64,000 nt of DNA from Corallococcus macrosporus DSM 14697. GTDB taxonomy: Bacteria; Myxococcota; Myxococcia; Myxococcales; Myxococcaceae. Positions 34,580 to 36,457 of this stretch are shown here, piece after piece; the first letter of the stretch is position 1; each line of letters opens with the position of its first letter. The DNA lies in contig NZ_CP022203.1 of the NCBI RefSeq assembly GCF_002305895.1, positions 1,838,501 to 1,902,500 of the forward strand, read 5' to 3'. A program made the position numbers and the translations under genes. The notes beneath the pieces are model-generated. The model ran no database searches and was not told the DNA's origin. It saw only the letters and a program-made list of their open reading frames with translations.

Positions 34580-34776
34580 GCGGCCCCTCCTTCTTCCAGA
34601 CGCACATGGGCCAGCGGTTCTACGAGTCGACGATGCCGCAGCTCGTTCGCGAGCTGACGCGCCTCAACGACAACGTGGAGCGGCTGGTGGCCGTGGCGGA
34701 GCAACTCGCCAAGCAGAAGGAGGCGCGGAGCGTCGAGCCGGCGCCGACGACGACAGAGGGGGTGGAGGAACCATGA
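34576..34776 (+). CDS. Small coupled protein between DUF2924 and integrase (66 aa)
   Basis: The start overlaps the DUF2924 stop by ATGA and its end overlaps the integrase start by ATGA. A predicted helix, [19 protein letters not shown], looks like a short coiled coil. It may be a small partner of the recombinase or DUF2924 protein. Confidence 0.6.
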
Positions 34777-36457
34777 GGAAGAGCAAGCCAGCGCCCTCGG
34801 ACGCGAAGCGCTGCGCCGTCTACACGCGCAAGTCCACGGCGGCGGGCCTGGAGATGGAATTCAACAGCCTCGACGCCCAGCGCGAGTCCTGTGTCTCCTA
34901 TGTGCAGCGCCAGCCCGGCTGGGTGTTGTTGGATGAGAGCTATGACGACGGCGGCTTCACCGGCGCCAACATGGAGCGGAGGTGTGGCGCTCATCCTGAG
35001 CACGCTCCGAGGGGAGCCGGGTGCTCACCCAGCGGCCAAGCTCCGAAAATGGGCTGAAATCAGGAGGGGGGCTGCTGGCGGCTCAGGATGAGCGCCACAC
35101 CCTGGAGCGGCCCGCCTTCCAGCGACTGATGCAGGACGTGGACGCGGGCCGGGTGGACGTGGTGGTGGTGTACAAGGTGGACCGCCTCTCCCGCAGCCTC
35201 CTCGACTTCGCGAAAGTGATGGAGCGCTTCAACGCGGCAGGCGCGTCCTTCGTCTCGGTGACGCAGAACTTCTCCACCGCCGACGCGATGGGCCGGCTCA
35301 CCCTCAACATGCTGATGTCCTTCGCCGAGTTCGAGCGAGAGATGATTTCCGAGCGCACGCGGGACAAGGTGGCCGCTGCGAGGCGCAAGGGGAAGTGGAC
35401 GGGAGGGCGCGCACCGCTGGGCTACGAGGTGAAGGACAAGCGCCTCGTGGTGAATGAGTACGAGGCGGTGGTGGTGCGGGAAGCCTTCGAGTTGTACCTC
35501 CAGCACCAGCAGGCCTCGGTGGTGTCGCGCCTCCTCAACGAGACGGGGCGGAAGACGAAGCGGTACGAGGCCCAGAGTGGTACCACGCGCGCGGCCCGGA
35601 AATGGACGACGCAGGATATGCTGCGCCTCTTGAGGAGCCCCCTGTACGCGGGCTTCGTGCCGTATGGCGACGAGATGCACCCGGGCGAGCACCCGGCGAT
35701 TGTAGACAGGGCCACCTTCCATCAGGTGCAGGACATCCTGGAGGGCCGTGGCCCCTGCATCCAGTACCACGGGCGCAACCCTGACTACGTGCTACGGGGA
35801 CTTCTTCGCTGCGGCATGTGCGGCGAGGCAATGACGCCCGGCTCCACGCGCAAGGGCACGCGCGAGTACCGCTACTACCGCTGCGTCACCCGGGACAAAC
35901 AGGGGAAGGAAGGGTGCCGTGCCTCTCCTCTTCCAGCAGCCGCCCTGGAGGACTTCGTCGTCGCCCGGCTGCGGGAAGTCTCGGTAGGTGGGGGCTTCGC
36001 GACGCAGGTGCATGCTCGCCTCACGTCGCGACTGGAGGAGAAGCACAAGGCCCTGCGCGCCGAGCGCGCGCAGCTCCCGAAGGACCTAGCCAAGCGCGCT
36101 GGGGAGTCCGCGAAGTGGGTGGAGTCCCTCGCGAAGCTGGAGGGCCCAGCCCGGCGCATTGTCGAGGAGAAGCTGACGGCTGCGGAAGAGGAGTCCGCCG
36201 GAATGAAGAAGCGGCTGGCGGAGGTGGAGCGCGCCCTGGACGCCATGGAGGGGGAGAAGCTGGAGGCGGCCTGGGTGGCCCAGGCCTTGGCGGACTTCGA
36301 CGCGGTGTGGGACGCCCTCACGGCCGCCAACCGGGGGCGCCTGCTGCAGGCCCTCGTCGGCCGAGTCGTAGTGGATGAGGAGACGGACAGAGTGGACGTG
36401 CACCTTGCCCATGCAGGTGAATCCGCGACGCCCGTGCGCGAGGAGGTGGCGGCGTGA
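34773..36457 (+). pseudogene. Large serine recombinase (phage integrase), interrupted
   Basis: The catalytic domain starts [12 protein letters not shown] with the likely nucleophile Ser, followed by LDAQRESC and VVVVYKVDRLSR. The recombinase domain holds GGRAPLGYEV and the zinc ribbon has CGMCGEAM and YYRC. A long coiled coil and a C-terminal tail follow. At residue 69 a 123-bp insertion stops translation. Removing it with one TGGAGCGG copy restores MERPAFQRL and gives 520 residues, within family range. The gene would have integrated and, with a directionality factor, excised the prophage. Confidence 0.9.
34980..35102. mobile_element. MITE-like insertion in integrase gene
   Basis: A 123-bp non-coding element has 21-bp perfect terminal inverted repeats beginning GGTGTGGCGCTCATCC, plus one mismatched outer base. 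An 8-bp target duplication, TGGAGCGG, is at 34972-34979 and 35103-35110. No transposase is encoded, so it must have been moved in trans by a full element not in the window. Confidence 0.88.

Follow-up and report, generated by a model that had tools for sequence, protein, structure and literature searches.

We report here that a prophage serine recombinase gene (34773-36457) is split by a short insert, which most probably arrived by transposition. The gene lies in a window of 64 kb, which corresponds to G000:C1:1838501-1902500 of an 8.97-Mb single-contig genome (hereafter the home genome); this genome was searched, and also sampled by stretches. In the reading that we favour, with a probability of roughly 0.92, the insert is an ISKra4-related miniature inverted-repeat element (MITE) of the Myxococcaceae that transposed into the recombinase gene and inactivated it. 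An ISKra4-family transposase, acting in trans, would recognise the inverted ends and insert the element after codon 69, duplicating 8 bp of the target. The ensuing change of frame and the stop codon inside the insert would then leave this copy of the recombinase inactive.

The 123-bp insert is bounded by a perfect 21-bp inverted repeat, the arms of which lie 79 bp apart, and its outermost bases, A and C, flank the two arms without matching each other. This is the sole perfect 21-bp inverted repeat with a spacer of up to 300 bp in the window, and shuffled versions of the window (n = 5) contained 0 to 2 inverted repeats even at 14 bp. Both flanks carry the same 8-bp direct repeat, TGGAGCGG. The insert encodes no protein of its own, and the only frames found in it either run through it or restart inside it. 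A consensus scan gave no sign that the insert introduces a promoter or a terminator. At the RNA level a hairpin is predicted that pairs both ends (-81 kcal/mol, z = -7.7). The insert is short (below about 600 bp), lacks a gene, is bounded by inverted ends and a target duplication and occurs at more than one genomic site, as is usual for MITEs. The initial annotation had described a non-coding MITE-like insert with these ends and this duplication, and each of these points is confirmed in the sequence.

Table 1. Window coordinates of the split recombinase gene, its insert and the adjacent gene.
Feature	Position	Strand	Basis
Recombinase 5' piece, 69 aa, S21, start of resolvase domain	34773..34979	+	Pfam Resolvase 2-49; alignment with intact relatives
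Target-site duplication, left copy, TGGAGCGG	34972..34979	+	8-bp flank overlap in 27 insert-free loci
MITE-like insert, 123 bp, without a gene of its own	34980..35102	.	Inverted ends, second copy, predicted hairpin
Left terminal inverted repeat, 21 bp, GGTGTGGCGCTCATCCTGAGC	34981..35001	+	Resembles ISKra4-family ends
Right terminal inverted repeat, 21 bp, identical to left	35081..35101	-	
Target-site duplication, right copy, TGGAGCGG	35103..35110	+	8-bp flank overlap in insert-free loci
Recombinase 3' piece	35103..36457	+	Pfam Resolvase 46-145, Recombinase, Zn_ribbon_recom; PHROG 95 integrase; alignment
Small downstream gene, overlaps recombinase stop codon	36454..36876	+	No Pfam match

In alignments to intact relatives, the second protein piece takes up where the first one stops (...GANMER / ERPAFQ...). 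The flanks thus belong to the same protein, and removal of the insert rejoins the catalytic domain at MERPAFQRL, as had been proposed. The 5' piece aligns with residues 1-69 of the intact relatives, which themselves match the TP901-1 integrase; its own Pfam Resolvase match (positions 2-49) scores slightly below the gathering threshold. It contains the catalytic serine motif YTRKST, in which alignment to the TP901-1 catalytic domain identifies S21. The DRLSR active-site arginines, the recombinase domain, the zinc ribbon and the C-terminal region are carried by the 3' piece, which shows no other disruption. The domains of a large serine integrase (resolvase, recombinase, zinc ribbon) are all present, with the catalytic domain interrupted: the break after residue 69 separates S21 from the DRLSR arginines. 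The intact paralogue in the home genome matches the catalytic domain of the TP901-1 integrase (PDB 3bvp) over residues 12-147, whereas the copy in the window is broken within this domain.

The insert and the duplication together add a net 131 bp, which is not a multiple of three, and the integrase frame runs into the insert and meets a stop at 35057. A downstream frame of 478 aa starts at a GTG (35021) within the insert, and no active enzyme is expected from it since it lacks the catalytic nucleophile. Because the serine and the arginines are in different frames, with a stop inside the insert, this recombinase copy is presumably inactive, and neither piece would be expected to provide an active enzyme. 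The earlier claim of a disrupted integrase is borne out by the shifted frame and by the way the break divides the active-site motifs between the two pieces. The small gene that follows is possibly affected by polarity.

What the insertion means for the prophage is a question about its consequence, distinct from the nature of the insert. The initial annotation held that the prophage is locked in place, which exceeds the data: an intact recombinase homologue, with 89% identity across 450 aa, is found 424 kb away (G000:C1:2297412-2298755) and might act in trans. Mobility could also come from a tyrosine integrase, the gene for which lies in the window (15973-16653). That the prophage is unaffected, by either of these routes, is a serious possibility to which we give rather less than an even chance. 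Action in trans is not assured, because a serine integrase as a rule recognises only its own att pair.

Head-protease and portal genes at 374-5522 indicate that the window, at least in its left part, derives from a phage. A search for phage relatives returned only distant matches, to Acidithiobacillus phage AcaML1, and no near match for 14000-36876. The prophage-like region is accumulating insertions, since an IS21-type insertion (approximately 24323-27031, with Mu/IS21-type transposase domains) and an IS701 element (approximately 37580-38997) are both missing from the matching region of genome G064, where the overlaps at the junctions are short. On the right side of both prophage-like regions of the home genome there is an 86% identical stretch with a tRNA-Asn gene (window 59667-59998 and G000:C1:2314156-2314488), which is possibly linked to the integration sites. 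The Mx-alpha elements of Myxococcus xanthus are multi-copy prophage-like units of ~100 kb arranged in tandem, and the text of the paper describing them does not mention an integrase (PMC5562445). In G064, three copies of the recombinase lie ~98 and 102 kb apart, like such tandem units, and several copies exist in M. xanthus AM003; by contrast, the copies in the home genome are 424 kb apart. From this comparison we would infer only a possible identity with Mx-alpha.

The initial annotation had pointed to sister strains with an intact integrase as a check, and had considered that its reading would suffer if the same sequence were found in functional integrases. Intact relatives do exist. At 27 related recombinase loci, some of which may represent one genome present in two collections, the flanks are contiguous and overlap by exactly 8 bp, and the insert is found in none of them. 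The closest intact relatives share 93-96% protein identity over the 3' piece, and the closest named relatives carrying the gene belong to Myxococcus and Corallococcus. The junction is likewise uninterrupted in the home-genome paralogue and in G064. Since the junctions are flush and free of the insert in all of these, the insertion appears private to the lineage of the window genome among the relatives sampled. Neither piece of the gene carries other damage, suggesting that the movement was recent.

The initial annotation also anticipated a full-length parent transposon elsewhere in the genome, to be found by searching for the inverted ends around a transposase. The home genome does contain three complete ISKra4-family elements of 1554 bp and a broken one; ISKra4 elements were retrieved with the insert's own ends as the query. 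The three complete elements are ~99.5% identical to one another, have the ends GGGTCTGGATCCGATCCTGAGC and GGGTGTGGCTCCCATACTGATC and are flanked by the 8-bp duplications GTAGGAAG, GGAGGGGC and AGATTCCC. Their transposase scores above the NCBIfam cut-off for the family (NF033572), as does the transposase at locus L101. The insert's ends are identical to those of the resident elements at 17/22 and 18/22 positions (77-82%), and to those of a 1517-bp ISKra4 relative at locus L120, in a related genome, at 19/22 and 17/22. When the end sequence was shuffled 200,000 times, the observed identities were reached 0 or 1 time. The L120 element has an 8-bp duplication, GCGGAGCA, and interrupts what appears from its translation to be an IS66-type transposase gene; the duplication length of the insert is thus shared by four ISKra4 elements.

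The parent in the strict sense was not recovered. With up to one mismatch tolerated per end, the matches obtained from 195 Myxococcota genomes include no autonomous element with the exact ends of the insert, which itself contains no transposase. Comparison of its internal and subterminal sequence with the resident copies gave only short, insignificant matches. An origin of the insert by internal deletion of these copies is not supported, as the subterminal sequence is not shared. The resident elements would for these reasons represent a family match, not a proven progenitor. One could argue from the lack of an autonomous element with identical ends, and from the 4-5 positions out of 22 at which the resident ends differ, that the insert is a MITE or transposon end of another, unsampled family. 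We find this improbable, given that the insert and ISKra4 share the outermost GGGT, a closely similar internal core and the length of the duplication, that the L120 element bears intermediate end sequences, and that the insert's ends by themselves led to ISKra4 elements.

A second copy of the insert, identical over all 123 bp, is located at G000:C1:6442818-6442940 (L108:5819-5941). This copy has no target duplication, and its history may have involved transposition or a later rearrangement. An IS3-type element is situated just upstream of it, and the short stretch in between is repeated across the genus. Searching with the insert ends also revealed related family elements of 121-143 bp with similar ends, for which exact 8-bp duplications were found at L097 (TATCGCGG) and L119 (AGGTTCAG), and one matching at 7/8 positions at L111. 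The interior of the MITE is conserved in relatives in genomes G022 and G023, and partly in G009. The exact insert ends were absent from viral contigs, and none of the papers retrieved on MITEs with ISKra4, Myxococcus or serine integrases describes the family, judging by titles and abstracts. At L088:4140-5090 (G070:C86), two inverted family ends enclose ~950 bp with an apparent transposase fragment, possibly another non-autonomous composite. MITEs are often numerous in genomes; Nezha of cyanobacteria and the Correia elements are bacterial examples. The insert resembles bacterial MITEs in being short and non-coding, with perfect inverted ends, a target duplication and a transposase presumably supplied from outside, but differs in copy number, with only two copies in the home genome and few across the Myxococcaceae.

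Two further readings would allow the recombinase still to be made. The insert might be an RNA intervening sequence, akin to an intron or ribozyme, in keeping with the very stable predicted hairpin joining its ends and with two gene pieces that are still open and otherwise undamaged. This is hardly credible: there is no Rfam intron or ribozyme match in the window, none of the 27 related recombinase loci has the insert, and the inverted ends, the duplication and the second copy outside the recombinase gene are features of a transposon. It is just as doubtful that ribosomes hop over the insert to produce some full-length recombinase; the 8-bp duplication does place matching codons on either side of a 123-bp gap that can form a hairpin, much as in T4 gene 60 and some yeast mitochondria, where such gaps are bypassed, and this layout arises whenever a MITE inserts with a target duplication.

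In the sister genome G022, on contig C34 (L107:436-2456), two MITEs of the family, mutually inverted over 100 bp, enclose a Thoeris II pair, namely ThsB (TIR) and ThsA (Macro), of an anti-phage defence system. The 2021-bp unit sits in a CRISPR spacer, between the repeats at 371 and 2473 (L107). Transposition of the unit as one composite would fit, because the 8-bp duplication TGCTCCGC flanks both of its outer sides within the spacer. It is also possible that the right MITE was inserted alone and a rearrangement followed, since its inner flank, CGCTCCGC, is a near-duplicate of the outer flank (7/8). The unit may be a composite transposon, bounded by MITEs, by which a defence system is moved. 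Among 96 genomes of the bacterial family, this cargo was found in no genome besides G022.

The insertion described here is an ordinary gene knock-out. The ISKra4-related MITE reading documents a small family of such elements across the Myxococcaceae, for which the home genome contains candidate autonomous partners, and clearly illustrates the disruption of a prophage recombinase by a MITE. The Thoeris unit inside a CRISPR spacer in G022 suggests, moreover, that MITEs in pairs may serve as carriers of defence genes.
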